Shown piece after piece: positions 14,092-49,431 of a DNA stretch of 64,000 nucleotides (position 1 is the first letter of the stretch; every line of letters begins with the position of its first letter). Below the pieces are notes generated by a model. That model was not told where the DNA came from and searched no databases. It saw only the letters and a program-made list of their open reading frames with translations. The stretch is from Malus domestica (Eukaryota; Streptophyta; Magnoliopsida; Rosales; Rosaceae), in contig NC_091676.1 in assembly GCF_042453785.1 (NCBI RefSeq), positions 2,425,501 through 2,489,500 of the forward strand, written 5' to 3'. A program made the translations under genes and the position numbers.

Positions 14092-17000
14092 ATGGGTGTG
14101 TCGTTCCAGGTTGCAAAGACGGGTACGAGGTACAGACCGAAGCTGCTTCCGACTGAGGAGAAAGACAGCAGTGAAAACGATTCGGGTTCTGACCCTCAGC
14201 AGCGAGAGAACGAGGTCTTGTAGATGTTATGAGTTCGAGTTTTTTCACCAGCCAACCTTTTATTCAACCTGCTTCATAGTATTATTTTGATTGATCGGTT
14301 GTTGTTTGTTGTATTGTTGTTTTATTGTCTCGGTTGGATTTTGGGGTTTCTGGTTTTTATGACATTTCTGTGGTTTTGGTTGATGGGTTTCTTTTCGGGT
14401 GGTGCTATCCACATATCCATTTTTACCTCTCACACATGGAAGGTAAAAACGAGTGTTTGGATAGCACCACCTGTTTTTTTTTTTCCTTGCCTGTAATTGT
14501 GATTCGTTGTTTGCATGGTTGAAGGTTGATTAATTCAGTGGGGAGTGAACTTTCACTTGTTTATGTGTTTTTATTTTTCCCCCATCTTTCGCTTTTTTTT
14601 TGTTTTATCGAAAGATTGCCCTTTTTTATACAAGCGATGTTGGGAGAGGAGAATCGAACTTGGGAGCTTGGATGAAAAATTTCGCCTTTAATTGTTGTCT
14701 TTTGTTATATAAAATGGACGTTTTAAAACATAATTTAGTTAACAAGTTGGATGTTTAGTTGAAACACATTTTCAAGTGCCTGTAAGGGTTTTAAATTATT
14801 AAATCTTCCAATGGTTTTGTGAAGGTTAATTGTACTGGGATGGGAGCTAAGGTTGCTGCTGCTGATCCTTCAAGTGTATTAGTCAATCTTTCAGAGGGTA
14901 ACGCACCACTTTGATCTTGTAAGCTTATGATCTGCTGAGAATTTTTTCTTGTTGAGAGTCGATTTTTCGTGCAGACTTTGAGGTATCCTTTTCACTGAAG
15001 TTGTTTGAGAATGGATTTAACGTGGGAAAAGCTAACGAGGTCAGAAATCATGACGATAGATTCTTACAGAAGTTGCTTGCATTTGTTAAACTATTGTATC
15101 ATTTGTAATCTTTCCACCGGCCATTAACGCACACCTTAATGCTTTTGTAGCTGCTCAATGGCGTACCAGAGCACTTGCATCCATATGATAGAGCATCAGA
15201 GAAACTTTTTACGGTAAGTCTGTGATTCATTATTTGCGCGGTGTGATTCACCAGAATGTCTTGGCAGTGACTTAACTTTTTGTTAGATAGGCTACAAGTT
15301 ATTAATAGATAGCTAAGTGGTTCCCTTTCCTCCTCAGTTTTAACTAGATTGTTGAGGCCAAGATGACTGTTTTGCTTGCACATGCGAACTCAGTTCCACG
15401 GTCCGCTATTCCATTCCGCTCGGGCCTCTCTTTGGAGACTCCCTTCTTTCCAATCTATAAATATAGTGCTGCCTCGCTATACCGAGTCTTGCTATCTTGT
15501 TGTTGTACTTAGATCTTAACGGGTCATAGCCAGTGGCTTTTCACAACGACACTCATGGTCGATTGCTTCTACTTACGCTGCTTGTGCTGCATTTTATGCT
15601 TGTTAATTGTTTGAGTTCCTAAAACCCGGTTAAAATTTTAAGATAGGAAGGTCAGTTTCCATACGCATTTTATCGCCAGATAAACAGTTTACCTCTTTTC
15701 CTAAAACCCGCAAACATCACAGATTTTTAGGGGAATATTGGATAGAGCTATTGAAAAAAATGTTCCTACATATTGGGGTTTGTTTAGTTGTTATTGAACA
15801 TCAAATGCTGGAATGAAAGGTCATGGAACTTTGATATCTTCTTTTCTTTTATTTTTAGATAAAATCTTCGGAATATTGTTCAACCTTAAAGCGATTCGTT
15901 AATATTTTAATGCAAGATGCAGGTTCTTTACTGTATATTTAACACTCATAATTTGGTTTTCTATATTTGTCGTGTTTATCAGGCGATTGAGTGTGGTTGG
16001 TTACCTGGAGATGTTTTTGATGCCTTACCTTGCAAATATGTCAATGGAGCCATCCTTTGTGAGGTGATGTCTTTGTTTTAGTGTTTATTTGGTCATTGGC
16101 ATTAGGTATGGTAGTTTTGTCTTCTTGAAAGATGTTTCCTTCGCAGATTCAAGATTACCGCAGTTGTTTGATCCAAGAAAGAGCGACTGTTCCTACAAAT
16201 AAAGTTCCAAGTGTTCACAAGGTTCTCTTGCATATGCGCACGGAAAATGTTGTCAAAGACATCTTGTCAATCTCCAATAATTCTTGGACCTACAGAGACT
16301 TTTTGGTTGGTAGACTTTTGTAGTGAGCATCTGTATGCTCCTCGGCTTTCCGCTCAAGCTTATTGCCTCGTTCTCATGTTCATTTCCTTGTTCTTGTTCA
16401 GGAAGTTGAGTCCCAAATTGTCAAGGCTCTGCAACCTGCTCTTCATCTAAATCCACAGCCATTGCAGGACATATACTCTGGAGAATCCTTAAGAAAGAAG
16501 GTACTGGAAGTGATAGAATTCGTGTAACGCCTGCCAAAGTTCCAAATGCGTGAAGCATATTACCTAACTTTTCCATTTTTTAGCAGATCAATCTTGGAAT
16601 TATGTGGAGCTGGAAAAGGCGAAAGCTGAGTAATGCATCAGACACCGACATAGATTTCAACAACTCTCATCATGTAGCTGACATTACCGTTAATTGTGCT
16701 ACTCAGAGTTGCAGCTCTCTAGCTGGTTTATCGTATCAAGAAAGAGGCATTACATTTTCGGAGCACAATGTTGTACGAGAGAACTCATTATCCACAAGAA
16801 AACAACCTTCTTCAAGAGAATTGGGGAACTCACTTTCCAATCTGTTGACATCACAGCCTACATCTAAAGCTGCATATAGTTGTAGCCAGGCTTCTTTACC
16901 GATGGTTGCAGTGTCTGATTTTGCCGCTTTACCCAAACCAAGTCTTAACTACTCAAATAATGGTTTGGGAATGCCTGGTTCATCGGCTCTTGATAAGAGA

Positions 17001-20000
17001 GTCAGATGTGAAACACAAGCAGTTCAAGCACCAATGCTAAAGAAACCCAAGCCAGAGCCCGTGGACTTATCTTATCAGCAGCTTACTGGAAGCCAAGCTG
17101 AAACCAGTCTTCTACCTTATCTACAGTGGAAGAAAAAATTGTTGCATCAACCCAGTGAGGGTGGAAAAGTTATACATGAAAGAATCCAGGAGAAAGAGCG
17201 TCCCTTGGCGATAATAAATAATGGTCAGACAAGAAGTTTTCAAGGAATCTCAGAGCTGCAGGCTGCTTTCGACACTTCTAATGTTAAGTTAGAGCCTGAA
17301 AAAGATAGTTTCCCCAGTTCAAATTTTAGGAAGACCAAAAATGAGCACCGTGTGATGGACAGGATACCTGTTCAGTCTTATCTCCAGCAATCACAAAAGC
17401 AACAATCATCATCTCAATTAAGAGATAATGTATCTACTAATATGAGGATGCACAGAAGTGTCTCTCAATTGAGGACGGGTTCAGATATATTCCAGGTTGC
17501 AGCTCCTGAGAATTGTGCGTCTGCAAGTTCTCCAAACATAACCTTTCTGCCATCAGAGGTAGTTGTTCCTCCAAAGCAGAAAACAGATCCTCGTCCTAAA
17601 CGCTCCAGAAAAAAGACTGATGATTCTAGTGCTAGCATGGGCAATACCAATGCTGCTGATGCAAACCATGTTTCCATGAATCTTACTTCATCTCGGCCAT
17701 CAAGACCTAAAGCTGGATCTTTCCCTGAGAGCTTTTTGAAGATTCAAGCAGTGACTGAGAGGTAGTATCATAGTTAAAGTCATGCCAGTTATACTGCAAA
17801 TAGTTCTGTTTCTGCAGTCTTGCTTGTTATGATGTGTAATGCTTTGTAATGCATCAGGTATGGACTACATAACAGGGAGTACAAATTGGACCCATTTTTG
17901 CGAAGGAAACCCTTTTCTTCCGTAACTCCATTGGTTTCTTACCAACTCTTATCTTCAGGAGATAACAAAAAGTGGGAGAATACTTCCGCAGATAAAATTT
18001 CTCTCAAAGAATGCTTTCTGGACAGGGGTATCGGTATTTATGAAACTCGGACATTGACTTTTCTACGTCAATCTCACATCCATCAAGGTAAAGAACTGAT
18101 TATGTTTGTCTTCCATGCATGTTATATATATACATGTATGTAATTTTCAACCCTTATCGCTACCTTTCTTCTCATTTTGAGTAATTCTATGCAATCCTAG
18201 AAAATGAGACTCCCATCGTTGATAGAGAGGCTCAGGTCAGACTGATCATATCAGAGAAGCTGAATGAGGGAATGATGAAAGCAAGTGTTGCTTATGGAAC
18301 CGAAAAAGAGATGTTTTCAATTGATTATCCTCTTCTACCGGCTTCTACTAGCACTGTGAGTTTCCATTTGTGATTATTCAGAGTCTCCTCTTCTGATATA
18401 TGATTGCGACGTTCCTTTTGGAATGCAATAAATCTTTCGATTATCAATCCCCTGACATCTGTTTTGAGTTTGTTACCCTGTGGTCTATTTTACATAGCAA
18501 AGCTCATGGTTTACAGATATTTCCTTGATATTTCAAGTAACTAATGAGCACTTATATCTTTTGTCAACTACTTCCGAATTGCGGTCCCATGATTTTATTT
18601 GCGCGTTCCCATAATTCCTTATTCCAATTTTCTTTTTCGAACCAACAGTTGGTCTATTTTGTGACTATAATTTTACGAGATTAAAATCTATCCAGCCTCC
18701 GTTAGCAAACTGTATAGAATAAGAAACGGAAGCCAGTTTATATCTTAGAATCGTGTTGCTGGGTTGATTTGATGAAGAAAGCATCTGATTTCATGTATTG
18801 TTCTTGGCAGCATTCTGCATACCTCTTGGCTACTCAGTTCACCACACTGGTATGTTTGTATCTGTTGCGGATTTTTCATGGATTAGGTTTGTTTCTCAGA
18901 ACATAAAATAATACTTCGTTATTTACTCTTTCGTCATTCTTTTGGACAGATGAAGCATGAAGGGTACTACCTAGCTAGTTATCATGTAGGGCCGATTTCT
19001 CCCAAGGCTGACGGGGGCTTCAGCATTCAGTGGCATAGTGCTAGTATTAGTGCCACTCCATCAGCTCGACCAATCGCCCAACCTTCCTCAACTCTGACCC
19101 CAAGGTTATCACCTTCCGGACTCAGTCCCATATCCATGCAACGCCATTCACAGAACATTTTCTCTGGAGGCCAATTTCTCCCACCTGAAATCATACAGTT
19201 AGCTGCACAACTCCCGGACACTTGTATACCCAAGCAAGCTCTCAGCATTGCTACACAAGAAAATTGCATGATGCCGCAAGTCCGGCAGATTCTGAATAAT
19301 TGTGCCTATTCAATGTATCAGACGCTGCAAATACAACAACAACAACAACAACGAAATCAATTCATGCAGGGGGGATCAGGAGGTGGAGGAGTAAGTGCAA
19401 GTGGTTTAGGTATGATTGAACGGGGTGGAGTCCAGGGACTTGGAAATTCTCGTCTTGGTTTGTTGGGTAATGGCATGGGCTTGAGGTCCTCTACTCCTCC
19501 TACGGAATTGGGAGGACGGATGCCTTGGGTTGGCAATGTAGGCCTGTTTAACAATCTTGGCAGTGAAGTATCTAGTTTAAATGACAGCAAGCTACCTCTT
19601 GGCCCGGTTTCTGATCTTCTGAGGGCCACAGAAGGCCAAGGGAAAGCCTTGATGAATGGGGTTTCGGTGGACATAACAAATTCTCGAGGCGTGACTACTA
19701 AATTAAGCAACCAGCAGCTGCTACAATTGCAGATGCATCCACTGGAAATGAGATCACTGTTTGAACAGAGGATACAACCGGAAATTAGATCACTGGTTGA
19801 GCAAAAGATACCGCCACAGATGCATCCACCAGAACTGGAATCATCAGTCCAGCAGCAGATACAACCGCAGATGTATCAACCGGGACTGGGATCACCAGTT
19901 GGGCAGCAGCTACAACCGCAGATGCATCAACAGGAAGTGGGATCACCAGTCCAGCAGCAGATGCAACCGGAAATGAGATCACCAGTCCAGCTGCCACAAC

Positions 20001-20188
20001 AGAATACGGAGCAGCAGCAGGAAATGACATCATTGCTCCAGCATTCAGATACAGCAGCCATCGTAGTACAGCATGCAGGTTCACCTCATTGTCAAGTTAC
20101 CCGTCATCAACAATTTGATCAAAGCCAACAACTTATCCCAGAGCCAGCAGCGCAACAGGCGAATGGTAAAGAGTCATCAAAGTGTTGA
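14092..20188 (+). CDS. PHL: SPT20-like nuclear protein, PHYTOCHROME-DEPENDENT LATE-FLOWERING (PHL) type; 3' end altered by Copia insertion
   Basis: Proteins of this type are nuclear, Gln-rich and carry an Spt20 (SAGA subunit) domain; Arabidopsis PHL is reported to promote flowering with phyB and CONSTANS. Exons: 14092-14214, 14825-14897, 14975-15039, 15151-15213, 15983-16063, 16147-16305, 16402-16500, 16587-17761, 17858-18087, 18201-18355, 18811-18849, 18950-20188. They sum to 3501 nt, 1166 aa, and frame holds at every join. The Spt20-like core spans roughly residues 66-220 (SLKLFENGFNVGK, VPEHLHPYDRASEKLF, GWLPGDVFDALPCKYVNGA). The middle is Ser-rich and basic; the last exon is Gln-rich with repeated QPQMH-type units (19730-20000). 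Donors after exons 1 and 3 (GAG|GTCTTG, GAG|GTCAGA) are weak, so those joins are less sure. The last six codons (KESSKC) and the stop come from a retrotransposon LTR. Function is inferred from family. Confidence 0.85.
14398..14471. repeat. Small inverted repeat in PHL intron 1
   Basis: GGTGGTGCTATCCACATATC at the left pairs with GTGTTTGGATAGCACCACC at the right, and TTTTTACC with GGTAAAAA inside. It resembles the 42929-43076 element (GTGCTATCCACA, TTTTTAC.TCTCACACA) and is probably a short member of that MITE group. No target duplication found. Confidence 0.6.
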
Positions 20189-20342
20189 TAAGAATTGCTT
20201 ATAGTTTGTTTTAGTTGTTTTGTAAATTGTTAGTTTGGTTAAGGGCATAAGTGTAATCTGTTAGAATGCCCACAATATATATATCAAACTTTGTGTAATT
20301 ATCTGATTGTATTGAATGAAAGAAAGATATTCAGTTTCTATA
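20167..20342 (+). repeat. 5' LTR of the Copia element
   Basis: This 176-bp direct repeat of 24881-25056 starts TAAAGAGTCATCAAAGTG and ends CAGTTTCTATA. It supplies the last six codons and the TGA of the host PHL frame. An AATATATATAT box and an AATGAA tract lie inside and could act as promoter and polyadenylation signals; this is inference. Confidence 0.95.
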
Positions 20343-20507
20343 TGGTATCACGACCGTCTCGCCTCACGGCCTTCTCTCTCTCGATCCTCTTCGCTTTCGC
20401 TCCTAATTTCTGATCTTTCTCTCTGAATTTTGCTGTGATTCTTCATTGTTCTTCTTCGATTGTCGCTTCGATCTTGTTGTTTGGTGTCTTTCTCGCTGCA
20501 ATCAGCC

Positions 20508-23500
20508 ATGGCGACTCCGTCAAATTCGTCTTCTCCTCTTGAGTCGGTGCAAGCTCCAAACCCTAATTCGTCAAATTATGCCATGTCTTCGTCTTCATAT
20601 GCTTCTCTGACGATCCAAAACATTGGAAGTATGGTGCCAATTAAACTCAAACGCTCCAATTATCTCCCCTGGCGTGCTTTATTTGCTCCAATTCTGCGCC
20701 GGTATAAGCTCCTTGGCATCATTGATGGTACTGAGGTCTGTCCATCACCTCTTCTTTCTGATCGCTCTATCAATCCCGACTTTGACATTTGGAATGAGAA
20801 AGATCAGAACCTTCTCATCTGGTTGAATTCTACTCTGTCTGAAGAAGTGATTCCTTTCACTGTTGGTGTCTCGTCGTCTCGGGATCTATGGATCAAGCTT
20901 GAGCAGCGCTTTGGAGTAGTCTCTGATGCTCACATTCATCAGTTACGATCTCGTCTCCAATCCATTCAGAAAGGTTCACAGTCAATTTCTGATTATCTTC
21001 AACAAATCAAGGAAATCTCTGATGCCTTGATGGCGGCTGGTGCTCCTGTCACAGATCGTGACCTAATTGCGGCTACACTGGCTGGCTTACCTGATGAGTT
21101 TGAATCTTTTACTGATTCCCTTCTTCTTCGTCTTTCCCATACAACTCTGGATGAATTGCATGGCTTACTGCTCACCAAGGAATTATCAATGACTAGAAGG
21201 AAGAAAGCTGCTTCCTCTAACACCACAGAGCCTTTCCATGCCTTTGCTGCTCACTCGCTGCCTCCTCTTTTGCCTACACCGCCACCGCACCAAGCTTTTG
21301 CTGTTCAACCTCAGTCTTCTCGCGACAATTACCGTGGCAGTCATCGTGGAAACTATAGAGGCAATGCTCGTGGACATCGTGGCAATTATAAAGGTACCAA
21401 TTTTCGTGGCAATTATCAAGGCTTTCGTGGCAACTCTCAAGGCTCTCGTGGTATCCAGTGTCAAATATGTGGATCAAACAGTCATGAGGCTATTGACTGT
21501 TTTGATCGAATGAACCCTGATATATTTGGCAAAGTTCCTCCTGCTAAACTTGCTGCTATGTGTGCACACTTTTCATCAAAGCCCACTCCTTCTTGGCTTA
21601 TTGATTCGGGTGCAACTTCTCACATTACAAATGACATCTCTAACATTTCTTCTCCTACTCCTTACCGTGGTGAAGACAAGGTCTACATTGGTGATGGTAA
21701 AGGTTTGACAATTACCAACGTTGGTTCTTCGTTTTTACATACTCCCTCTGCTACATTTAAACTGCAACATGTTCTTCATGTACCATAAATGCAGCACAAT
21801 TTACTATCTGCATATCAATTTCTCAAAGATAATTACTGTTCTTTGACTCTTAATTCTGATGGATCCTTTGTAAAGGATCGTTCTACGGGGAAGACGCTTT
21901 TGCGGGGACCGGTTAAAGATGGTTTTTATCCCCTGCAATGTACATCTCAGTCATCTCAGTCATCTCATCGTTCTGCTACTTCACCTACTGCCTTAATAAG
22001 TGTCAAAGCATCGATTTCAGTTTGGCACAGTCGACTTGGTCATCCGTCTTCATCAATATTCAGGCGTGTTCTCTCAACAAATAAGCTTGCTCTCACAGGA
22101 AAGGCTTCAGTGGATTTCTTTTGTTCTCACTGTGCTCTTGCAAAAAGTCACAAGCAGCCGTTCAGTTCTGTTAGTTCTACTTCTTCTTCTTGTTTAGAAC
22201 TTTTACATTGTGATCTCTGGGGTCCAGCTCCTGTTATGTCAGTGAGTGGATCTAGATACTATCTGTTGATTGTAGATGACTATAGTAAATATAGTTGGTT
22301 CTTTCCTTTACAATCCAAATCTGCAGTGTATTCTGTATTGGTTCAGTTCAAGAGTTATGTAGAAAACCTTCTTGGCAATAAAATCAAAGTGTTTCGTTCA
22401 GATTCAGGGGGTGAATTTACTAGCACTGCACTACAGAATTTTTTCAAAACTCATGGTATTATACATCAATTCAGTTGTCCACATACACCTGAACAGAATG
22501 GTTGTGCAGAAAGAAAACATCGTCATCTGGTCGAGACTGCTCGCACACTTTTGGTTGCTTCTAATGTGCCTCATGTTTTCTGGGTAGAGGCCTTTTCCAC
22601 TGCTATATACTTGATTAATCGACTTCCAATTTCTGGCATGATGCAGTCTCCATGGGAATTATTATTTCATACTTTCCCTGATTATTGTCGGCTGAAGGTC
22701 TTTGGTTGCAGCTGTTTTCCATGGCTTAAGCCTTATACAACTTCCAAACTGGACAGCAAAAGTAAGTATTGCGTGTTCTTGGGGTACAGTCTTCAACATA
22801 AGGGATATCGGTGCTTGGATCCATTGACACAGAGGGTCTATATATCTCGTCATGTTATTTTTGATGAATCTACATTCCCATTTCATCACTCTCACCCATT
22901 GTCCCCGAGTGCTTCCCGATTTAATACTGCATCTCCAGTTGTGTCTTCAGTTGACTTGCAGTTCACTGTCCCTCATTCTTCCCGATCCTGCACTACTAGT
23001 GCCTCCCTTACTGTCCCACCTACTGCCCCTATTGCCTCACATGCTCCTACTGCCCCCACTGCTCATACTGCCCCTATTGACTCACATGCTGCTCCTGTTG
23101 CTTCACATGCTGATTATGTTGCTTCACATGTTGATTCTGTTACTTCACATGATCTACTTGCTGCCCCTATTGACTCACATGATCCTACTGTTGATTCCAT
23201 TGGTCTTCCCATCTCGGTTCCTTCTGTCTCTTCTACTGTGCACAATACTCATCCTATGCTTACTCGGTCAAAAGCAGGGATATTCAAACCCAAGGCCTTC
23301 TCGGCAACCAAGCATCCTCTTCCATCTTCTCTTGATTTTGTCCCATCTACTTATTTGCAAGCTTCCAAGCATGCTCACTGGAGAACTGCTATGTAAGAGG
23401 AGTTTAATGCATTGCAATCTACAGGGACATGGGTTCTTGTACCCTCTTCTCCTCTTCACAATGTTGTTGGTTGTAAATGGGTCTTTCGGATTAAGAAACA

Positions 23501-24902
23501 TCCTGATGGTTCTATTGATCGCTACAAGGCTCGCCTTGTTGCCAAAGGCTTTCACCAACAAGCAGGCATCGATTATAAAGAAACTTTCAGTCCTGTAGCC
23601 AAGCCTGTTACCATTCGTATCCTGTTGTCTTTTGCTGCTCAGTTTCACTGGTTTTTAAATCAGTTAGACATTAGTAATGCCTTCTTGCATGGGGATTTAC
23701 AAGAAGATGTTTTTATGCAGCAGCCTCATGGCTTTACTGATCCCTCTTTTCCACATCATGTCTGCAAGCTTAAAAAGTCCCTTTATGGTCTTAAACAGGC
23801 TCCAAGGGCTTGGTTTGACAAATTATTTCAGGTGTTGAGATCTTTTGGTTTTCAGCAGTCTTCTTCTGATGCCTCTTTGTTTGTCTTACGAGCTCCAACC
23901 TTGGTGATCATCCTTGTATATGTTGATGACATTTTGGTAACTGGTCCTAATGCTACACTCTGTCAGCATTTTATCAACAAACTGAGCACTGTTTTTCCTG
24001 TCAAAGATCTAGGCTCATTGCATTATTTTTTGGGACTTGAGGTGCACAAGTCTTCTGAAGGCATATTCTTACACCAAGGAAAATATTTACTTGACCTTCT
24101 TCAGAAGACTAAAATGGATGGAGCTAAACCATGTTCCACTCCCTTAGGCACGGCCAAACTTGATCATACCGGTTCTCTCTTGTCTAATCCCACAGAGTAT
24201 CGATCCTTAGTTGGTGCCTTGCAATATCTTACATGGACTCGGCCAGATATATCTTTTGCTGTGAATCAAGTATGTCAATTCATGCATGCTCCGAGGGATT
24301 CCCATCTTCAAGCTGCTAAAAGAATTCTCAGATTTTTAAAAGGTACTCTCACCCATGGCTTATGGTTCAAACCCGGAAATCTGCACCTTACAGCATACTC
24401 TGATGCTGATTGGGCAGGGTGCACATTTGACAGAAGGTCCACCAGTGGCTATTGCATCTTCCTTGGTTCTAATTTGATTAGTTGGAGTGCCAAGAAACAG
24501 CCAACGGTTGCCCGATCCTCTACTGAAGCTGAGTACAGGTCTTTGGCTCACACTTCGGCTGAAATAACATGGATCTGTAAAATTTTCCGAGATATTGGTT
24601 TTCAACTACCTCAGATTCCTCATCTCTGGTGTGATAATATCTCTGCAATATCTTTAGCTTCTAATCCTGTTTTTCATGCCCGGACTAAACACGTTGAAAT
24701 TGACTATCATTACATCCGTGAGCTGGTTCTTGCTCATCTTATCAAGGTCCAATATGTTTGTAGTCAAGACCAATTGGCCGACATTCATACTAAGTCTCTG
24801 TCTCGGCAAAGATTCCTCTATCTTCAATCCAAGCTTTCTCTTGGTTCTTTTGATGCTTCCAAGTTCAGCTTGAGGGGGTGTAAAGAGTCATCAAAGTGTT
24901 GA
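20508..24902 (+). pseudogene. Copia gag-pol polyprotein with two in-frame stops
   Basis: One reading frame holds, in order: a gag with LKRSNYLPWRALF (UBN2-type) and CCHC knuckle CQICGSNSHEAIDC; protease WLIDSGATSHI; GAG-pre-integrase WHSRLGHPS; integrase with HHCC finger (CSHCALAKSHK) and core (CDLWGP, DDYSKYSW, PEQNGCAERKH); reverse transcriptase (CKWVFRIKKHPDGSIDRYKA, VYVDDILVTG); and RNase H (YSDADWAGC, STEAEYRSL). The start is the ATG at 20508 in good context; upstream codons lack ATG. Frame is kept throughout, but TAA stops occur at 21786-21788 (between protease and integrase) and 23394-23396 (before reverse transcriptase). It therefore cannot make a full polyprotein unless the stops are read through. 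Confidence 0.93.
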
Positions 24903-25056
24903 TAAGAATTGCTTATAGTTTGTTTTAGTTGTTTTGTAAATTGTTAGTTTGGTTAAGGGCATAAGTGTAATCTGTTAGAATGCCCACAATATATATATCA
25001 AACTTTGTGTAATTATCTGATTGTATTGAATGAAAGAAAGATATTCAGTTTCTATA
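24881..25056 (+). repeat. 3' LTR of the Copia element
   Basis: This 176-bp copy matches the 5' LTR, with no difference seen by eye. The pol frame runs into it and stops at the same TGA (24900-24902) that ends the host frame in the 5' LTR. Confidence 0.95.
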
Positions 25057-25061
25057 AATGG

Positions 25062-26185
25062 AACGCGGCTTATGGAATCCAGGAGATGAGCTTGCAGGCT
25101 TATGGCTATGCGGGAAGTAACAAAACTTCAGCTCAATGAGTGTTGTTTTTCTAGCCTTTTGGTCTTTTCGTTTTTGGTCAACAGTAGTCAAGAGGTAAGA
25201 TTTAGTGGGAAAAACCAGGGTTTTTGGGTGTACATTTTTACATACCAAGGTAGGGAGGGGAAGGGTATACATCCATTTTGTCTTTTTGAAATAAAATGTA
25301 GGGGAAAACAATCAGCCTCATGTTTCTTCAATGTTTTTCTTCTATCTATTTGCTTCATCTGGGAGAATGGTGTGCCAAGTATATGTTGCCAAAACAAGAT
25401 CAACAGTCCACTTACCTGGTTGGAGCAGTGTGCTTCTCTTAATGAATTCAAGTTTGATTTTTTTTTTTTTTTTTTTTGTGATTTAGATTAATTTGATATA
25501 GTATTTCTCGTGTAAAAAAAAAAAAAAAAAACCTCAACGGTTCATTTTTTAATACAAACAATGCCTTAATTCATACTAATTAAATTATACAAAAGAAAGA
25601 TTCAAATTTTGAGTGCATATTAAGACACATTTTCTTTAGCTAATGCGGCTATCCCCCGTCTAAATAATTAGAAAGTAAGTCAACATTGCATCGGATTCAA
25701 ATAGGATTGTAATGATAGCTGATTCAATTACAATGAATTCGTATAGAAAGTTGTTCGTATCCCATTAACTACACCAGATTCGGTCCATTCGGATAAGATT
25801 GTAATTACCATTTTCAAAAACAAAAGTGCATAATGAATTGTTGAAAAAATGCATCGGATTTGAATAGGATTGTAATGATAGCCGGTTTAATTACAACGGA
25901 TTCGTTTAGAAAGTTGTTCGTATTCTATTAATTACACTAGATTCAGTTAATTCTGATAAGATTTTAATTACCATTTTCAAAAATAAAACTGCGAAATGAA
26001 TTGTTGTTGAAAGAAATGCTTCGGATTCAAGTAAAATTGTAATGATAGCCGGTTTAATTACAACAGATTCGTATTAAAAATTGTTCGTAAGTTATTAATT
26101 ACATCAGGTTCGAATAAAATTGCAATTAATATTTTCAAAAAAAAAAAAAAGCTCGATGAATTGTTATGGAAAAAAGAAGGTGGGA
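25062..26185 (+). other. Displaced PHL 3' end/UTR, then spacer with tandem repeats
   Basis: Sequence right after the target duplication (GAACGCGGCTTATGG...) is what followed the PHL coding end before insertion. Joined across the duplication, the uninterrupted frame would end within about ten codons. Poly(T) at 25459-25478 and poly(A) at 25514-25530 follow. The remainder is the repeat array listed next. Confidence 0.6.
25690..26170. repeat. Three tandem units of about 162-168 bp
   Basis: Units start near 25692, 25854 and 26022. Each carries CGGATT(C/T)(A/G)A.TA..ATTGTAATGATAG, then CAATTACAA or TTAATTACAA, (G/A)ATTCGT, GTTGTTCGTA, AGATTCGG and ATTACCATTTTCAAAAA. Copies differ by scattered substitutions. 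No ORF is conserved; a structural or satellite-seed origin is likely. Confidence 0.8.
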
Positions 26186-26194: not shown

Positions 26195-26399
26195 GGAGGT
26201 GGATTGTCTGGCCTCCTATTTTCATACTCTTCACATCCTCTCTTGTTTGTGTGGTCATGGTTAAGTCACGTCAACATTTTATATTATTTTTTTATAAAAA
26301 TAATAAGAATATAAAATGTTGACATAACTTAACCGTGATCACAAAAAACAATTGAGAATAGAGAGAGTATAGAAATTGGAGGGCAGATACTCCACCTCC
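26195..26399. mobile_element. Mutator-like MITE, family A copy 1
   Basis: The perfect 9-bp duplication AAAAGAAGT is at 26186-26194 and 26400-26408. Ends are GGAGGTGGATTGTCTGGCC and GGCAGATACTCCACCTCC. The core holds GTGTGGTCATGGTTAAGTCA and its inverse TGACATAACTTAACCGTGAT, so the whole can fold back. Related copies are at 32717 and 60013. Nine-base duplications are typical of Mutator-like elements. Confidence 0.9.
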
Positions 26400-30003: not shown

Positions 30004-32116
30004 GCTGCTTATTTCTTTTACGTTTTTACTTCCAATTCTTCTTGATCTGTTCATTTTGCAACTTTTGCTCGTTAAGTTGTAAAATCTCATCCTTATCAGC
30101 ACATAGACGTTTTTCGTGTCTATTTTCAAATTTGTATTCCATCCATTAATACAGACTACAGTCGGGCTATTTGTTAGTAATATGAAAGGCCGGTGGCGGT
30201 GTGGTTTCACTGTGTGTTTCAACGCTTTAGCTGTTTCACTGTGTGGTTTCACCTTGAAACCACTCCGGTGACGTTCTTTCTTATCATTCAAGGTGTGGTT
30301 TCACTGTGTGTTTCAACAGGTAACATACGATTGTACTTGACATTGCGTGATTGGCTTGGATAACCCCACAATGGCAATATGGTCTGTAAGTTTCTCTCCC
30401 ACCATCCACGTACAAATCTCATGAAATTCAAAGTGTACAAATCTCATGAAATTCAGAGTATAGAAAATCCGCTCTGGCATCATGAAAGACGATGTTACTC
30501 AACACCATCTTTCGTTTGACTCGTTCTACACGTTTGATCAAAATATTCAAGTCAAACATGCTTTCTGCGTGTGTCTACTCAGTAGGTCTGTCTCCACAAC
30601 ACTAGCTCTTAAGGAATTGGTCCAAATGGTATAGTGTTGCTTAAACCCATATCCCAAAGGTCGTTATGCGTGCATGAATCTGTCAATTATCCTTCTGCAT
30701 TCTTCACATATTACCATATAAATGGAAGAACGTCAACCATCCGATCACAAATTTTCCACGTGAATATGAGTGGCGGTGATGCTTAATTTGACTCGATTAC
30801 AAACAGAGTGAGTTTAACTGAGTGTTAAAAATAACCATTAGGTGAGAACAATGTTCAATGTCTGAAAGAACACCTTAAAGTTTTTAAACTTTTTATAGGA
30901 GATTTTTTTTCCATGTCCTTATTCAAACAAGTACTTTACGTGTCATAAAATAAATAAAATGACATAAAAAATTATATTATTTCCTTTTTTTTTTTTTTTT
31001 GAACGACTGTTTCCTCTTCTTTTTTTTTATATGTGAAGTACCCCTTAAATACTCAATATTAAAAAAAAAACAATATTATCAATAGGTAATGGTCAAAGTA
31101 AAAGTACCCTTTTGGATTCAATTTCATCAACACACTGCACACGTGTTAGTGCTATTAATAGGGTAAAGATAGAAGGATTAATTGTACACTATTAATGTGG
31201 GCTCCTTTTCCACCCCTAAAATAATACAGGCCTGGAGAAAATCCAAGAGAAGGACAAAAAAATATCAAGTCAGTGAACTTATAGGCCAGCCCGATAGGAC
31301 CAAATGAATGAGGCCTGACCGTTTAATGGTCTGGTTTGACTATCAACAAAGAAGCTTACAAAAGGGACATAAAGATTGTCAGACCTAGTGTTCGGGGTGG
31401 TATTCTCTTGACACCTCAGGGATGAGCAAAGTGCTCGACACGTATTCGATTAGGAAACATCGCAACTAGGAGCAATCGTGTTCGTTCATCGTACATGGTA
31501 CGGTCAGTTGTCGTTAATAATTTCCGACCGCTCAACGTACGATGAACATATATGATTACAGGATTCTTAGAAAAATGATCCCAGGATCCTTTTCCGGAGC
31601 AAACGTCACTTCACTTCCACGTGTTACTTAGACAGTGGAAGAATAATTTGTTGGTTAGGTTTGTGTGTTCTGACCATCTAATGCGAGAACAGTGGAATAC
31701 TATGTGCCAAGACTTTGTGAGACTTTTTGGCTCACAAAAGGCCTAGCCGCCTCTGTAAAGACTAAAGAGGAGCAAGTACTTCTTATAGTCATCGGACGGA
31801 ACGATACACTGTTAGTACCGAGCGTTTCTTGTAACCTATGTCATATAAATACAAATCACTACAGTGGACATAATTCAGTTTTGTTGAACAACTTCAATAT
31901 TGTTGTCCATTACTTAAAGTCGTGATCCCAAATCCCACAAAGAGTTGGCCATACTCATCTTTGTTGACCTCTTAATTTTGAGCGTCAACAAACAAAATTG
32001 TTGTTTTCATCTCAACCATAGAACTAATTGCTAGTGTTAGGCACAAACTATTAAAGAAACGTAAACGTATCTTAGCCATAAGTAGTAGTGATTTTTAAAG
32101 TTTCTTCTTTAGGTGG
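30004..32116. other. Oxygenase 3' UTR and gene-free spacer
   Basis: After the stop come the 3' UTR, a duplicated 25-base phrase (GTGTGGTTTCACTGTGTGTT at 30194 and 30293) and a 25-bp tandem pair at about 30408-30458 (GTACAAATCTCATGAAATTC). Near 31480-31550 GTTCATCGTAC and GTACGATGAAC form an inverted pair, and 31560-31605 resembles the right arm of the 11322 MITE. No gene recognised. Confidence 0.5.
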
Positions 32117-32124
32117 CCTGTCTC

Positions 32125-32594
32125 CAAGGTCTAAAATATCGATGATATAAGAATACAAAAACACGGAAATTTCGATGGAAATATCAAGATATTATCGATA
32201 TCGATAAAAATTGAATAAAAACCACGGAAATTGTACGAAAAACTTGAAAATTTTTATTGAAACTTTGCAGGATGTTTATTTAGTCAATTATCTATTAGTT
32301 TATCACAAAAATTTAGAAGGAAATACATTGCATGATGGATTTAACTGATTTAAGTTGATTATATAATGAGCTAGCAAACATTGTGAGTGTAAAAAATATG
32401 TAGTAATTAATGAAAGAAGTTTAAACACACCATAATCATTTATATATAATGAATTAGTACAATATTTTACATTTTAGTACCACATAGAGTTCCTATCAAG
32501 GTCTAAAATATCGATGATATCAGAAATATCGGTAGTCCAAAAACACGGAAATTTCGATGGAAATATTGGGATAATATCGATATTTTAGACCTTG
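32125..32594. mobile_element. 470-bp hAT-like non-autonomous element with internal duplication
   Basis: The 8-bp duplication CCTGTCTC is at 32117-32124 and 32595-32602. Ends are CAAGGTCTAAAATATCG and CGATATTTTAGACCTTG. A second direct copy of the left end begins at 32498, followed by the shared AAAAACACGGAAATTTCGATGG, so the last 97 bp look like a complete small element inside the large one. The 8-bp duplication fits hAT elements. No ORF. Confidence 0.85.
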
Positions 32595-32716
32595 CCTGTC
32601 TCAAGCCTCAAGTGCAGTGAATGGGAATAACTTTCCAAGTCATCTTCTTTTACCTACTAAATTTTCTCTAGGATTCTTCTCGACTCTCGAAGACCTACAA
32701 ACAAGGCATCCGAAAG

Positions 32717-32948
32717 GGACCTGGATTGTCTGCCCTCCCCATCTCATAATCATACTATTCTCATCTCCTTTTATTTATGTGGTCACAGTTAAGTCACGTC
32801 AATATTTTATATTGATTTTTTTTTTTTTAGAAATAATAAGATAAAAAGTAATGGGAATATAAAATGTTGACGTGGCTTAACCTCGTGACCACAAAAATAG
32901 GAGGGGATGAGAAGGATATGGGATAGGAAGGGCAGACAATCTAGGTCC
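32717..32948. mobile_element. Mutator-like MITE, family A copy 2
   Basis: The perfect 9-bp duplication ATCCGAAAG is at 32708-32716 and 32949-32957. Ends are GGACCTGGATTGTCTGCCCT and GGGCAGACAATCTAGGTCC. The core has GTCACAGTTAAGTCACGTCA paired with TGACGTGGCTTAACCTCGTG. Same order and ends as the copies at 26195 and 60013. Confidence 0.93.
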
Positions 32949-32957
32949 ATCCGAAAG

Positions 32958-33757
32958 GGATTCCTGCTAATAAATATATTATTTTTCTTCTCGACTATTC
33001 CTACGGGGATGTGATCGTGTAATTATAATATGATTTCAAAGCTTTTTCTTGAAGTAATTGTGATTAGTTTACTCTAATCCATTGCTAGGGCGTCCTATAT
33101 ACCGTCCTACCCGTCGTCCTTTTCATTGTCGTCGTCGTCGATGTCATTATTTATCGTCAATCAAATATTGTCTCGATCCTTCTAATAAGAAGGTCTTTGG
33201 ACTGACTAAATTATAATATGTATATGATTGGCACTTTTTCGTCAAGTAGACCATAGATTGGACACCCCTATGCACATTTTGTTTATGATAAGGTTTTTAT
33301 TTGGTACAATAGGAGTTTCGGTTACTTTCGTTTAAGAGCATCTCCGATGAAAGAAGCTAAACTTGGAGAGTTGAGTTGGTTTAGCTCTTCCTTTGCAACT
33401 TTAATGTGAATAGTTGAGTTCCCTCACTTCAAGATGAATGTGCACATTTTTTAGCTATTTTAACAAAGCTAACGAAATGTCTTCAATTGAGATAAAGCGA
33501 GACACAAAATTGACATTTAGAGGATTAAGTGAGACGTTTTGAATTTTAATTAACAAAGTGAGATTATAATTGAGTTTCGAGGGACATTGATGTAAATAAG
33601 TCTTCTCAACAACAGAAAAGCTTAGGCCTTTGGGGTAACTTGGAATTTTATTTATAAAAATAAAAAATAAAAAATAAAAAATAAACACCGATATTATCTA
33701 GGGAGAGAGGGTTAAGCTTATCTTAGAAACGGAAAATTGGCAGCTAACAATGAGATA
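32958..33757. other. Gene-free spacer
   Basis: AT-rich sequence with a GTCGTCGTCG tract near 33128 and an AAAAATAAAAAATAAAAAAT run near 33658-33685. No gene or bounded element seen. Confidence 0.5.
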
Positions 33758-33930
33758 GGTCACTCAGTACTACGATCTAGTGGTATTCCTATTCACTTAG
33801 AAGTGAAAGGTCTTAGGTTCGAATCTCATGGATGACGAATTTGATACCAAATTAGGTTGCCCATTGTGTGGTTTAACCGAACTCCTCATCTCCTTAGTGT
33901 AAAAATATTGATATCATTGTATTTAAAAAA
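33758..33930 (+). repeat. SINE copy
   Basis: Blocks CACTCAGTACTACGATCTAG, AGAAGTGAAAGGTCTTAGG, GGTTCGAATCTC (B box) and GACGAATTTGATACC are in the same order as at 52815 and, inverted, at 9345 and 10652. It ends in an A-rich tail (TTTAAAAAATAAAAAATAAA). A tRNA-derived origin is inferred from the B box. Confidence 0.7.
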
Positions 33931-34525
33931 TAAAAAATAAAAAATACAGTGTGGTCAGCGGATACGCGGATTTTCGTGGACGGTGGAGATTGCATCATGC
34001 ATCTTCTAATTATATTATTTCTCTCTTTCTGATGAATTAATAAACAAACACAGGGGTTACTAATTCTAATTTATATGTAGGTTTAGTCCTCAAAATTTAA
34101 TGCATCTTTGATTAACTAGTCAGCGGAGATCACGAAAAAATCTTTCACCACTAATCATACGTCTGTTTTGGTTTCTGGTTGGAATGACACATGTGTTGGA
34201 AATTATTTTGGCCCTGAACAGATCCCGGATTTCGTAGGAGCTTTAGAGAATTTAGCCATATCAATTCTCATAAATGTGGCCTCATTTACTCCTATATAGG
34301 TGACATTAGTTAAGAATAGTCTGCTATATTCCTCTTGATAACAAGATATTAATGTCATTAAATGTATAAAACATAACCCCTCAAACGTCAACAAACAACA
34401 CACATTTTATCATAAGAATGGGTAAGTTGTGTGTTCAACTTTTGAATCAAACTCAACCAGTTTGCCTATTGAACCTAGACCATGGGATCTCCAATCAGTT
34501 AGGTTAGGTTTCCGCCCAGTTCAAT

Positions 34526-37500
34526 TCATTGAATTGGCTTAAGACCCATTCCCCTCGATGTAAATAATATTTGCTCTCTTGGTAGGCCTTTTGTCAAATG
34601 ATCAGCTATATTTTCCTTTGACTTCACATAATCAATGGATATTATTCCATTGGAGAGCATCTTCTTAAGAGTATTGTGTCGACGTTTGATGTGACGTGAC
34701 TTCCCATTGTATACATGACTTTTGGCCCTTGATTGAGCGGCCATACTATCACAATGTATACATATAGCCGTTACCGGCTTTGGCCACATTGGAATATCCT
34801 CCAGAAAATTTTTGAGCCACTCGGCTTCTTCGCCAGCCAAGTCTAAAGCTATAAACTCGGATTCCATGGTGGACCGAGCTATACATTTCTGTTTAGAGGA
34901 TTTCCAAGATATTGCTGCACCTCCCAAGATAAAAACATATCCACTTGTCGACTTGGATTCTGTAGTGTCATAAATCCAATTGGCATCACTGAAGCCTTCT
35001 ACAACAGGTGGATATTTTGTGTAGTGTAATCCGTAGTCAAGTGTATTTTTCAAATACCTTAACACTCTTACTAAAGCATCCCAATGCTCTTGTGCCAGAT
35101 TACTTGTATATCTACTAAGCCTACTTACTGCATAAGCTAAGTCGGGCCTAGTTGAATTCATCAAGTACATTAGACTTCCAATTACTTGAGAATATTCAAC
35201 TTGAGATTTGGCATCGCCTTTATTTTTCTCCAACTTGCATCCAGCATCAAAAGGAGTCGCAGCAGGTTTGCATTCAAATTGACCAAACCTTCGTAATATT
35301 TTTTCTGCATAATGGGATTGTGTAAGGACATATCCTTCACTATTTCTCTTAATTTGAATTTCTAAAATGACATCGGCTTGACCTAAGTCTTTCATGTCAA
35401 AACTTGAATTCAACATTTTCTTTGTTTTGTTTATTACATCTTTATTGCTTCCCATTATGAGCATATCATCCACATACAAGCAGACAATAACACAAGTTTT
35501 ATCATTACTCTTAATGTAGACACATTTATCAGATTCATTTATTTTGAACCCATGTGTCAACAAAGTATGATCAAACTTTTCGTGCCATTGTTTTGGTGTT
35601 TGTTTAAGTCCATATAATGACTTAACTAATTTGCACACTTTGCTTTCTTGTCCTTTAAGCACAAACGCTTCAGGTTGTTCCATGTATATTTCTTCATCTA
35701 GTTCTCCATTTAAAAATGTTGTTTTTACATCCATTTGATGGATATCAAAGTTGTATACAGCCGCAATTGCTATTAACGTCCTAATTGACGTTATGCGAGA
35801 AACTAGAGAATAGGTGTCGAAATAATCCAACCCTTCTTTTTGGCGATAACCTTTGGCTACTAAACGTGCCTTGAACTTGTCAATGGTTCCATCCGCCTTG
35901 AGTTTCTTCTTGAAAATCCATTTATGACCAATTGGTTTACTACCGGGAGGTAAATCAACCAATTCCCATGTGTTATTTTCCATAATGGATTCCATTTCAC
36001 TTTTAATTGCTTCCTTCCATAAAGGAGCCTCAGAAGAAGACATGGTTCTTTAAAAGTTCTAGGTTCATTCTCGGATAAGAAAGCAATGAAATCTGGTCCA
36101 AAGTTTTTAGAAACTTTGATTCTTTTTCCTCTTCTTGGTTCCACATCATTTCCTTGGACACCAGAAGAAGATGCTTCATCATGACTATGATCATGAACCC
36201 TCTTTGTATTAGAACCAGATTCCTTTTCTTTGTAAGGGAATATATCCTCAAAGAATTCTGCATCTGCTGATTCTAATATAGTGTTAACATGTATGTCAGA
36301 AATCGAAGATTTCACAACAAGGAACCTATAAGCAGCACTATTATTTGCATATCCAATGAATACGCAATCAATAGTTTTAGGTCCTAGTTTCGTTCTTTTT
36401 GGTAACGGAACTTGCACCTTTGCTAAGCAACCCCACACTTTGAGGGTTTTATAAGTGGGTTTATGTCCTTTCCATATCTCATAAGGTGACTCGTCAATCT
36501 TTTTTAGAGGAACCTTATTCAATATGGTATTTGCAGTAAGTAAAGCTTCACCCCACAAACTGTGTGGAAGCCCAGAACTATTTAACATGGAATTAATCAT
36601 ATCTTTGAATGTTCTATTTTTTCTTTCGGCAACACCATTTTGTTGTGGTGTGTATGGAGCCGTTGTTTGATGTATAATTCCATATTGTGCACAAAAATCT
36701 GAAAAGGCAGTAGACTCATACTCTCCTCCTCTATCGGATCTAAGTGCTTTGATTTTTCTCTCAAGTTGATTTTCAACTTCGGCTTTATATGTCTTAAACA
36801 TATTCAAAGCTTCGTCCTTGCTATGAATCAAATAAACATAGCAATACTTACTGCAATCATCAATGAAAGTGACATAATAATTCTTTCCTCCATGACTTGG
36901 TGTGGATTTAAAGTCACAAAGATCACTATGAATTAATCCAAGTAATTCATTTGATCTTTCCAAAATTGACTTTCTCGTTTGCCTAGCAAATTTTGATTCA
37001 GTACATGTTTCACACTTATGATTAAAATTAATTTCGAATTTAGGTAATAATTCTAATTTAACCATTTTATGCATGGAACGAAAATTAACATGTCCTAATC
37101 TAGCATGCCAAATATTAGAAGACTCAACAATATAAGTAGAAGCATTTATTTTATTAGCATCATCAATGGCAATTACATTGAGTTTCACGAGGCCATCAGC
37201 CACATAACCCTTTCCAACAAACATCCCACCCTTGGTAAGTACAAATTTGTTGGATTCCATTACAAGTTTAAAGCCCTTAGCAATTAGAATTGGTCTAGAA
37301 ACCAAGTTCCTCCTCATTTCAGGAACATGCAGTACATTCAGCAAGGTCAAACTTTTCCCAGATGTGAATTTGAGTACCACCTTGCCATATCCCTCCACAG
37401 AAGATGTGGCAGAATTGCCCATATATAGCTTTTCTCCAAGAGCAGCAGGGTGATATTCTGTGAACAGATTTCTGTCAGCGCAGATGTGCTTTGTAGCACC

Positions 37501-38466
37501 AGTATCCATCAACCATTCACTCACATTTGAGACCATGTTAACCTCGGACACAACAGCAGCCAATTCTTCATCGGTGGTTGCCATGTTAGCATGGTTGTTG
37601 TTGTTTCCGTGGCCATGATTTCCATCCTTGCGATGATAACAATCTTGTGCCTTGTGACCAGATTTGCCACACACATAGCAGGCGCCCTTAATCTTCTTCA
37701 GATTCTTGCCTTTAGGAGCAAGGGCAGATTGCATAAACTGCTTGGTTTTCGGAGCAAGAGCCTTATTCTTTTTTGGCTTAGCCTTGGAGTTTCCTCCCTC
37801 AACATAATTCGCATTGGCTTCAATGGCTGCAAACCCTCCAGAACGGTCTGCCTTTCTGTGGTCTTCTTCCACACGTAGCCTCAGAATCAAATCCTCCATA
37901 TTCATCTCACGACGCTTGTGCTTGAGATAAATTTTGAAGTCATTCCAGGAAGTTGGCAATTTCTCAATTATCGCCCCAACTTGGAAATGCTCATTGATCT
38001 CGCATCCCTCAGAATGCAATTCATAGATCAACTTCTGGATTTCTTCGACCTGAGAAACAACAGATTTGGAATCCACCATTGTATATTTGAGAAACTTACC
38101 GATAACAAATTTCTTTGAACCGGCATCATCAATCTTATACTTTTTCTCTAGGGATTCCCACAACTCCTTCGCTGTCTTGCACATAGAGTAAATGTCGTAG
38201 AGATTGTCATCCAAACTATTCAGGATATAGTTTCGGCAACAAAACTCAGAATGATTCCAAGCTTCAATTGCCATGACAGTCTCTCTCGTCATTGGATTCT
38301 CATTAGACTTCGGAGCTTCTTCCTTAACAACATGAGCGAGATTCATTGTTGTCAGGAAGAACAACATCTTCTGTTGCCATCTCTTGAAGTCCAACCCTTT
38401 GAACTTCTCAGGCTTTTCTGAGTACTTTGGCACATCACCATTCACATTCACAGATTGTTGATCCAT
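34526..38466 (-). pseudogene. Copia gag-pol with one frameshift (inverted half)
   Basis: Gag begins at the ATG at 38466 and holds the knuckle CYVCGKSGHKAQDC, then protease WLMDTGATKHI, GAG-pre-integrase WHARLGHVN, zinc finger (HKCETCTESKFA) and integrase core (SDLCDF, DDCSKYCY, PQQNGVAERKN). This frame continues to 35860 out of register. Reverse transcriptase and RNase H ([39 protein letters not shown]) lie in a second frame from about 36043 to 34526. A single-base slip near 36035-36045 separates them; no other break is obvious. The family resembles TNT1-type polyproteins. One key motif is atypical: DTYSLVSR where DTFSPV is usual. Confidence 0.92.
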
Positions 38467-38484
38467 AACTTTCTGTTTCAAGAT

Positions 38485-39285
38485 TGTTGGTTATATGTCA
38501 ACAATCTGTGATAATTTATATATGCTAATAAATAATAAATGCAATAGAAATTAACATAATATAAACTAGAATACGAATTATAAAAACAAACAACTTGAAG
38601 ATCGAGGCTTGCGTACCGCAATGTCCTTGAAACAGAAATTTCGTCCCTACTCTGTGCTTGTAGTTCTACGGACGTCTGCTTCACCAGGATTCAACGATCA
38701 AGTTAAAATTCCAGCACCGGAAAATTTAACTTCTGGCGAATTTAGTGTGGTTCTCTCAGTAAGAAGGTTTAGGAATGTAGAAGATGAAGTTGATTACTTT
38801 CTGTGTTTTAGATGCTATGCAGATGAATGTATATATAGCAGATGGATGCCTGTTTGCAACAGGTATGAGAATGGGGTGTGACTGTTGGGAGACATCTCTT
38901 CAGATGGGTGCTTTGTTCTGTGTTCAGAAAGAACTCTCAGACTTCATCTGAAAGGATGAGTCTTTTCATAAAAAATAATTAATTAATTAAATTCGAATTT
39001 AATTAATTAAATAATTTAATTATTAGAGCCCAAAGGTCCAAGGCCCATCTTTTGACAATTAAATATATATTAAATATATATTAATTATAATTAATTATAT
39101 ATTAATTACCAAATAATTAATACACCCCAAAGCCCAACCCCAAGGGTGAGCCCAATTTTAGTCTCCAGGCCTATTACTCAAATCACTTTCTTTAAAGGAC
39201 AAAGCCTTATAAAGTGATAAAATCTTTTGGGAATGGCCAATGTGGGATAAGGAAATTTCTACTCAAACTACTCAAATTTCCAACA
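38485..39285 (-). repeat. 5' LTR of the inverted Copia half
   Basis: On the minus strand it begins TGTTGGAAATTTGAGTAG at 39285 and ends about 38485 near CCAACA. It shares blocks with the plus LTR at 40521: GTTGAATCCTGG, GAACTACAAGCACA, GAGTAGGG(A/G)CGAAAT and GGACATTGC, then AAGCCTC(G/A)ATCTTCAAG. The left limit is uncertain, because no standard primer-binding site was found between it and the gag ATG. Confidence 0.7.
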
Positions 39286-40520
39286 ATGATATTAATATAA
39301 AGAAATAATCATGAAAGTGTGGGGGTCTTTCAAAAAAGGACAAGACCATACTGAAAATGTAAAAGACATTTCGCAGATTTGAATTCGACATAATGATGCT
39401 TATTAAGTAAGCATATGATTGGACATGGCCATTGGGTCATGCATGTTAGTCATAGTAAGGAAAGAATGAAAGCCAAGAAGTGATTTTCTCATAATTTCTA
39501 GTGAGGCATGAAGGCCTAAAAAGATAGATAAAGTCTATATTAGTTGTTCCTTACTTCTTAAAGTGGAAAATGTGATCAATTTAATGATAGCATTACAAGA
39601 AACTACAATTATGAAAGAATTGTGGGGGTTGGTTAAAAGTAATTTGCTAATTGAATGACATTTAAGATGTCATCTCATGTAATGAGTAATTGTTTAAGGT
39701 ATGACAAGGTTAGAGACCTTCTTACAACTACCTTAAATGTGGGGGAAGTCTACTTCCAAGGGTTAGCAAATTATTGAATAAGTCCTAACATATGTTTTGA
39801 GGACGTAACATTGGAAATCAACTACTCTCATATAAAATATAATTTTATAAGATGGATTGTGCACACCATTATAGATAGTCAACCTAGTAGTGGATCCAAT
39901 TATTCAAGGTTAGACTAGAGAGTAAGTTGATCATCGAGGGGAATGAAGCTAAAGCCAACATAACTAATGAATCAGCCGAGCGGAAACCTAACTTAGTTGA
40001 TTGGAGATCCCATGGTCTAAGTTCAATAGGCAAACTGGTTGGGCATGATTCAAAGAAGTTAACACACTATATACCTCATTCCTATGATGGAAGAAGTGTG
40101 TTGTCTGCTGAAGTTTTAGGTTGTATATTTATACTTAATGACAGTGATATCTTATAAATAAGAGGAATAGAGCAGACTATTCTTAATCAGTGGTCACCTA
40201 TGTGAGAGTAGAAGTGGGTCGCTTCTATGAGTATGAGATGGCTAAATTCTCTAAAGCTCTCATGAATCCGGGATTTGTTCAGGACCAAAATGAACACAAC
40301 CGCATGAACCAGAATATATTAGGATTAGTGATGTGTGTTGCTTATTGTCTCGGTTTACTATTGCGGTGAATAGTTCAAGATTTTATATTCACTGCGTCAC
40401 CAAGTAAATCCGATAAGTATTCACTAGGGTAGGTTCAAGTTCAAAAGACACCTCTCCCGATGCATCTCTTGTCCGCCTGTACTCTCAAAGTCTTCCTGAT
40501 TTTTCATTCATGTGGTTGAT
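39286..40520 (+). mobile_element. Internal fragment of a related Copia element, plus orientation
   Basis: The part from about 39927 matches, in reverse, the region after pol in the inverted half. The part before it has only decayed coding traces, such as a GAATTGTGGGGG segment reminiscent of gag ELWG. Most of gag-pol is missing, so this is a deletion derivative. TTCATGTGGTTGAT precedes the LTR where a purine tract is expected. Confidence 0.7.
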
Positions 40521-41130
40521 TGTTGGAAATTATATATTATAATATGAAATAGTGTAATATATAATTTTAATAATTGAATAAAAAATAGTGTTAACCAACA
40601 TCTTAGAAAGGTTATGTTGTTTAAGTGATATTCCCTTGATAAGTGATGTATACTTATAGTGAAAAGTTACATCTCTTTAATAAGTAGATGTTGGATTCTA
40701 TATAAACCCATGAAACCATTGGTATTAGATATAGAAAATTAGAGTTAATTTTTACTTTTGAGAAATAGGGTTTCCCCACTTTGTTTCTCTCATGCTTTGT
40801 GTGTCAAATTCCGAGTTGTGTATTGAGAGTACGGAATATATAAAGTTCACCAGAGTCCGAAGATTGAAGGGCTTTGACTTCGGATTATAGATTGTTGAAT
40901 CCTGGGAGATAGACGCCTATCGAACTACAAGCACAAGAGTAGGGGCGAAATTCTATCTTTAGGACATTGCATTTATGCAAGCCTCAATCTTCAAGTTTGT
41001 CAGTTTTTCTAACTTTATCTCTAGTTGTTTATATTAATCACATATATAATTGATGTTGTGAAATTTCTTTATGATTATTATCATTGAAGTTCTTGTGTTA
41101 TTTTTCATATTTTCTAATATTGCTCCAACA
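40521..41130 (+). repeat. 610-bp LTR, plus orientation
   Basis: Begins TGTTGGAAATTATATATT and ends GCTCCAACA, with canonical TG...CA ends, followed by the target duplication ACATG. A TATATAAACCCATG box near 40700 and the phrase CTCTCATGCTTTGTGTG look like promoter and transcript-start regions. Homologous but not identical to the minus-strand LTR at 38485-39285. Confidence 0.85.
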
Positions 41131-48837: not shown

Positions 48838-49092
48838 GACACGTGGCACCTAAAATCCTATCCGAAAAATTAGTAAGATTACATAAAGATAAGAAATTTG
48901 GAGAGTTACTCACTTTAGCGACACGTAACACTCGAAATCATATCCGAAAAATTATTGAGATTACATAAAGATAAGAAATATGGAGAATTACTCATGTTAG
49001 TGACACGTGTCACTCGAAATCATATCTGAAAAATTATTGAGATTATATAAAGATAAGAAATTTGGAGGCTTATTCATTTGACGACAAGTGGC
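48838..49092. repeat. Three 81-82-bp tandem units with ACGT cores
   Basis: Units start at 48838, 48920 and 49002, with a fragment at 49083. Each begins GACACGT(G/A)..AC and continues CATATC(C/T)GAAAAATTA, GATTA(C/T)ATAAAGATAAG and TTTGGAGAGTTACTC. Two starts contain ABRE/G-box-like cores (ACACGTGGC, ACACGTGTC). They sit in the former intron of paralogue 1. Confidence 0.9.
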
Positions 49093-49422: not shown

Positions 49423-49431
49423 TAAAATATG

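Follow-up and report, generated by a model that had tools for sequence, protein, structure and literature searches.

A recent short-LTR Ty1/copia insertion in the last modelled exon of an SPT20/PHL-like gene of Malus domestica, with transcript termination in the LTR as the favoured outcome

Introduction

In Arabidopsis, new insertions of ONSEN were described, in the sections of that study consulted here, as ending host transcripts, including within the R regions of the long terminal repeats (LTRs), and as giving predicted RAV2 chimeras with LTR-coded C-termini (PMC12112155). One exonic ONSEN copy was intronised, an outcome that the authors termed unexpected (PMC12112155). For Evelknievel, inserted in exon 13 of Arabidopsis CMT1, the available passages report three splice-out forms, one of which keeps the frame and uses a GC donor supplied by the target duplication, together with the recovery of full-length CMT1 mRNA in very low amount (PMC6238269).

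As regards the elements themselves, TARE1 of tomato, a Copia element of the Ale lineage, is described in the excerpted text as autonomous and enriched in pericentromeres, with LTRs of 194 bp that start with TA and end with CA, and with 5-bp target duplications (PMC3701649). Other LTR ends are recorded in partial accounts, namely TG...TT and AA...CA in Rosaceae families and TG...TA in AcCOPIA1 of onion (PMC5659011), while TATA figures among the eight motifs of the LTR_retriever list, as quoted in an annelid study (PMC8220671).

We describe here a Ty1/copia element of 4,890 bp (20167-25056) with AATGG on either side, lying in sense to an SPT20/PHL-like gene in a window of 64,000 nucleotides of Malus domestica (the whole stretch of DNA analysed). 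The likeness to ONSEN, as far as that work is described, lies in LTRs able to end host transcripts and to add LTR-coded C-termini; by contrast, the ONSEN insertions were experimentally induced, verified in transcripts and of another family, whereas the present one is known from sequence alone. Evelknievel, too, is copia-like, has perfect LTRs and interrupts a coding exon, its host gene being chromatin-related, but it lies antisense and mid-gene, and its splicing was shown by experiment, whereas the present element is in sense and in the last exon, and its splicing is only possible. With TARE1, compared through its published description and not through sequence alignment, our element shares the copia order, short LTRs (194 bp versus 176 bp here), a TA start, 5-bp duplications, a primer-binding site that also begins with TGGTATCA, and a G-rich tract (TGAGGGGGGA in TARE1) that resembles TTGAGGGGGTG here. 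Unlike TARE1, it has LTRs ending in TA, and this copy carries two stops in pol and lies inside a gene, whereas TARE1 is described as autonomous and pericentromere-enriched. It was not filed as TARE1 because its LTR starts with TA but ends with TA, not CA. The TATA motif is common to this LTR and to the LTR_retriever list, the latter being a filter setting and not a family comparison.

Results and Discussion

The host gene was modelled with 12 exons, placed by eye on GT/AG sites without a homologue (Table 1). The preliminary description had called it SPT20-like, and a search with the N-terminal 258 residues of its protein agrees: the Spt20_SEP domain (PF12090), by which the SPT20 family is recognised, was matched at residues 65-208 with 74.6 bits, for a cut-off of 27.1, and phmmer with the same residues gave human SPT20 homolog chains at an E value of 0.023. 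The last-exon protein gave seven pattern matches in the genome contig collection (viral/prokaryotic collections), none of which was confirmed. Coding repeats of 51 bp (17 codons) occupy 19730-19974, close to the C-terminus of the host protein. We take PHL to be At1g72390. A review, in the part consulted, names At1g72390 for SPT20 of Arabidopsis. It also cites a protein with an SPT20 domain, named PHL in the title of the cited reference, that bridges phytochrome B and CONSTANS, and states that evidence of this mechanism is lacking for SPT20 in plants (PMC4604261). The label of flowering-time regulator would be carried over to the present gene from family membership only. None of the publications listed among our matches names in its title an insertion in a plant SPT20/PHL gene, which does not imply absence.

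Table 1. Coordinates, within the window, of the features of the host gene, the element and their junctions
Feature	Position	Strand	Remark
SPT20/PHL-like gene model	14092-20188	+	12 exons; joined frame open; 1,166 aa ending KESSKC
Exons 1-6 of host model	14092-14214, 14825-14897, 14975-15039, 15151-15213, 15983-16063, 16147-16305	+	
Exons 7-12 of host model	16402-16500, 16587-17761, 17858-18087, 18201-18355, 18811-18849, 18950-20188	+	
Target site duplication AATGG, left copy	20162-20166	+	
Donor-like junction G/GTAAAG	20165-20171	+	last G of duplication + LTR TAAAG; donor at 20166
5' LTR, 176 bp	20167-20342	+	TA...TA ends; supplies KESSKC + TGA of host frame
Host-frame TGA stop	20186-20188	+	inside 5' LTR
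Primer-binding-site core TGGTATCA	20343-20350	+	directly 3' of 5' LTR
gag-pol, single frame	20508-24902	+	internal stops 21786-21788 and 23394-23396; terminal stop 24900-24902 inside 3' LTR
Polypurine tract TTGAGGGGGTG	24870-24880	+	just ahead of 3' LTR
3' LTR, 176 bp	24881-25056	+	identical to 5' LTR
Target site duplication AATGG, right copy	25057-25061	+	
Right flank, 26 codons WNAAYGIQEMSLQAYGYAGSNKTSAQ + TGA (25137-25139)	25059-25139	+	coding-like; frame differs from left exon's
AATAAA in displaced native 3' region	25290-25295	+	

The element is delimited by direct repeats of 177 nt each (20166-20342 and 24880-25056), 100% identical to one another; once the AATGG duplication is set aside, the LTR proper measures 176 bp, starts with TAAAG and ends with CTATA. 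Three 25-base LTR seeds, searched exactly on both strands, had no occurrence in the window outside this LTR pair. In our judgement, chance is far from explaining identical 176-bp LTRs 4.7 kb apart combined with a 5-bp duplication, a primer-binding site and a polypurine tract, and the insertion itself is confirmed as real. LTRs usually, though not obligatorily, have TG...CA ends, and those observed here are TA...TA (TAAA...TATA). Canonical TG...CA ends were tried and rejected: before GTAAAGAG, the 3' LTR side has a T but the 5' flank is the G-ending AATG. The TA...TA ends were accepted because they alone fit the 5-bp duplication. Such ends are an uncommon but known non-canonical type, and membership in Ty1/copia stands despite them, since TATA is a recognised exception.

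Scanned apart as three pieces, gag-pol matched Retrotran_gag_2, Pol_BBD, gag_pre-integrs, rve, SH3_retrovirus and RVT_2 in copia order, with a copia-type gag in 20505-21785, rve in 21789-23393 and RVT_2 in 23397-24899. As in Ty1/copia elements, the integrase precedes the reverse transcriptase within one gag-pol frame, here interrupted by two stops, and direct LTRs, a 5-bp target duplication, a primer-binding site and a polypurine tract accompany it. The intact gag-pol that marks an active autonomous element is missing (stops at 21786 and 23394), so this copy, though recent, looks non-autonomous, and it is probably unable to move by itself. The absence of any difference between the LTRs over 176 bp gives a 95% upper bound on age of 0.65 My at 1.3e-8 substitutions per site per year, or 1.2 My at 7e-9, in agreement with the youth already ascribed to the element. 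Internal stops together with identical LTRs suggest either a template that already had the stops and relied on enzymes from other copies, or a later origin of the stops. In the viral contig collection, the LTR pattern had 0 matches and the pol piece no pattern match.

Other repeated features were observed in the window. A second Copia-type gag-pol lies on the minus strand at 34526-38490; it is divided between open frames of 876 and 507 aa that overlap, matches were obtained to gag, Pol_BBD, integrase and RVT_2, and no repeat pair of at least 80 nt was found around it within 32000-42000. About 600 bp past the insertion, a tandem array (25687-26111) holds 2.6 copies of a 163-bp unit. A dispersed repeat has three copies, at 26195-26292, 32723-32820 and 60013-60110, the latter two matching the first at 68% and 81%; the first overlaps a palindrome (26246-26347) with 46-nt arms that is MITE-like by eye. 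An inverted repeat at 45812-46445 has 267-nt arms, 91% complementary and 100 nt apart, and duplicated stretches extend over 48200-55400, with a GUB_WAK_bind receptor-like domain in both of the two that were scanned.

At the left junction, ...QQAN of the host frame is followed by G, whose codon is split (GG/T, the T being the first base of the LTR), and by KESSKC and TGA; the pol frame of the element closes with the same KESSKC-TGA. An incoming sense frame is stopped by the LTR after 0, 12 or 7 codons depending on its phase, split codon included, and termination soon after entry is therefore assured. No structured RNA was found at the junction (20120-20370; z-score 0.78, with 154 of 200 shuffles folding at least as well). 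The preliminary description had placed an AATGG-bracketed Copia insertion in the last coding exon and had read the host frame into the 5' LTR, where it gains KESSKC and a TGA, and both statements hold for the present gene model (Table 1). It had also put the native end within about ten codons. When the flanks are rejoined with one AATGG, the exon's own frame indeed gives ...QQANGTRLMESRR*, with a stop at 25087-25089 (NGTRLMESRR), but this native end is doubtful, the flank being coding-like in another frame. That the change is confined to the extreme C-terminus is nevertheless true of either candidate native tail, and the displacement of the native 3' region by 4.9 kb, with its AATAAA, is upheld as well.

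In favour of an RNA end in the LTR, the 5' LTR contains AATGAA (20315), AAGAAA, AATATA, TTGTAA (20220), three TGTAA and a TATA-like stretch (TATATA at 20276/20278), the exact AATAAA being absent from it. Over 20167-25450, the exact hexamer occurs only at 22377, inside the element, and at 25290.

We consider, with a probability of about 0.6, that an otherwise intact SPT20/PHL-like gene was hit recently, in sense and in its last exon, by a Ty1/copia element with short LTRs and TA...TA ends, and that termination in the LTR is the favoured outcome. From a mechanistic point of view, most host transcripts would then be terminated by poly(A) signals of the LTRs, whether in the 5' LTR or following read-through. 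With the stop in the model's last exon and no exon junction downstream, a fairly stable mRNA is to be expected. The protein would retain the Spt20_SEP domain and the Gln-rich region and would lose its end only, that is nine residues if the exon's frame ran on, or about 25 in the case of a native tail in the 26-codon frame. An effect on the 3' end or level of the mRNA, or on local methylation, is likely, rather than a loss of protein. Against LTR termination, the 5' LTR has no exact AATAAA while the displaced native region has one, and termination in the 5' LTR may be inefficient, because transcripts of the element itself must pass it. Against a simple insertion, a plain 5-bp duplication does not explain the frame change. 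Termination in the LTR comes first in our ranking, read-through and splicing being its competitors; the earlier claim that the gene is obliged either to adopt an LTR terminator or to be read through is kept as regards both routes, but the obligation omits splicing-out, which has been published for other exonic Copia insertions.

The frame change calls for a second look at the native C-terminus. Codon usage was tabulated from the host model in its correct frame. On this scale, where the median of 26-codon coding windows is 8.9, the right flank reached 16.0 in the 26-codon frame, 3.2 in the exon's frame (10 codons) and 4.0 in the remaining frame (20 codons). Open windows scoring as high as 16.0 were 11 out of 2,266 off-frame and none out of 2,522 non-coding, or 24 off-frame and none non-coding when the table was restricted to exons 1-11. 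In steps of 16 codons, the best-scoring frame switches about 20 bases or less from the insertion, the exon's frame being good up to the junction. This coding signal suggests that the flank belongs to the other frame, and it is quite possible, if a little short of probable, that the native C-terminus is the 26-codon flank frame and that TRLMESRR is not the native end, as a result of an unnoticed native intron or of a single-base change at the insertion or close to it, whether this change preceded, accompanied or followed the event. The test is a weak one, however, as three frames were examined in overlapping windows on a gene model drawn without a homologue. An intron is unconvincing, the best of 29 candidate donor/acceptor pairs scoring 3.4 and 3.7, for lowest values of 3.6 and 3.5 in the model, and the single-base change is therefore the likelier reading of the two, although the duplications are exact and such a change has left no visible trace. 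A different alternative, which we hold to be unlikely, is that the insertion is without consequence because it hit a paralogue that merely duplicates the role of the SPT20/PHL gene. In line with it, a table passage of PMC4532415, whose header was not seen, gives a second SPT20 accession in four of 13 plant columns, and phmmer matched human SPT20 only weakly; yet the 12 modelled exons form one open frame, Spt20_SEP is well over its cut-off, and no decay is seen besides the insertion and the adjoining frame change.

Removal of the element as an intron, from the GTAAAG donor (20166) to an AG in the 3' LTR, would be quite unlikely. The junction donor ranks second among the 52 GTs from 18950 to the junction, the donor of exon 9 of the model is also GTAAAG, and 123 of the 3,294 plus-strand GTs of the window score as high; these scores come from matrices made of the 11 donors and 11 acceptors of an eye-drawn model, which are small and circular for those sites. 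Thirteen AGs of the 3' LTR were tried, and each tail is reached from two of them: 25036 and 25048 return to the exon's frame, with products ...ERYSVSINGTRLMESRR and ...VSINGTRLMESRR respectively (net +12 nt for the latter), whereas 24957 and 24978 reach the 26-codon tail via LTR-coded residues. These acceptors are weak in comparison with the model's own 11, which range from 3.5 to 12.7: 25036 scores 2.0, 24957 3.8 and 24978 3.0, while 25048, with five pyrimidines in 20, scores -4.55, a value reached by 3,106 of the 3,620 AGs of the window. Precedents exist in Evelknievel (PMC6238269) and in the one intronised exonic ONSEN (PMC12112155), but, as these sources describe them, the former is antisense to its host, with very little full-length CMT1 mRNA, and the latter was "unexpected" to its authors. 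We regard as very improbable the further idea that the element family is built for exon tolerance, the TAAAG start of the LTR and a G-ending duplication creating a GTAAAG donor, with an AG 8 nt before the LTR end. After splicing of this kind the host would be 12 nt longer, from 8 LTR bases and the 5-bp duplication minus the lost G, and since this is a multiple of three, the host frame would survive in any codon phase unless the footprint makes a stop.

Conclusions

The event is ordinary in kind, a well-formed case of an insertion type already familiar. LTR termination, LTR-coded C-termini and the splicing-out of an exonic Copia have all been published for Arabidopsis. The biological weight of the insertion is speculative. 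It offers a compact case of three competing outcomes, namely LTR termination, read-through and intron-like removal. If polymorphic, it would provide a natural test of a poly(A) site moved behind a retrotransposon, in a gene for a subunit of the SAGA co-activator, a class linked to photoperiodic flowering in Arabidopsis.
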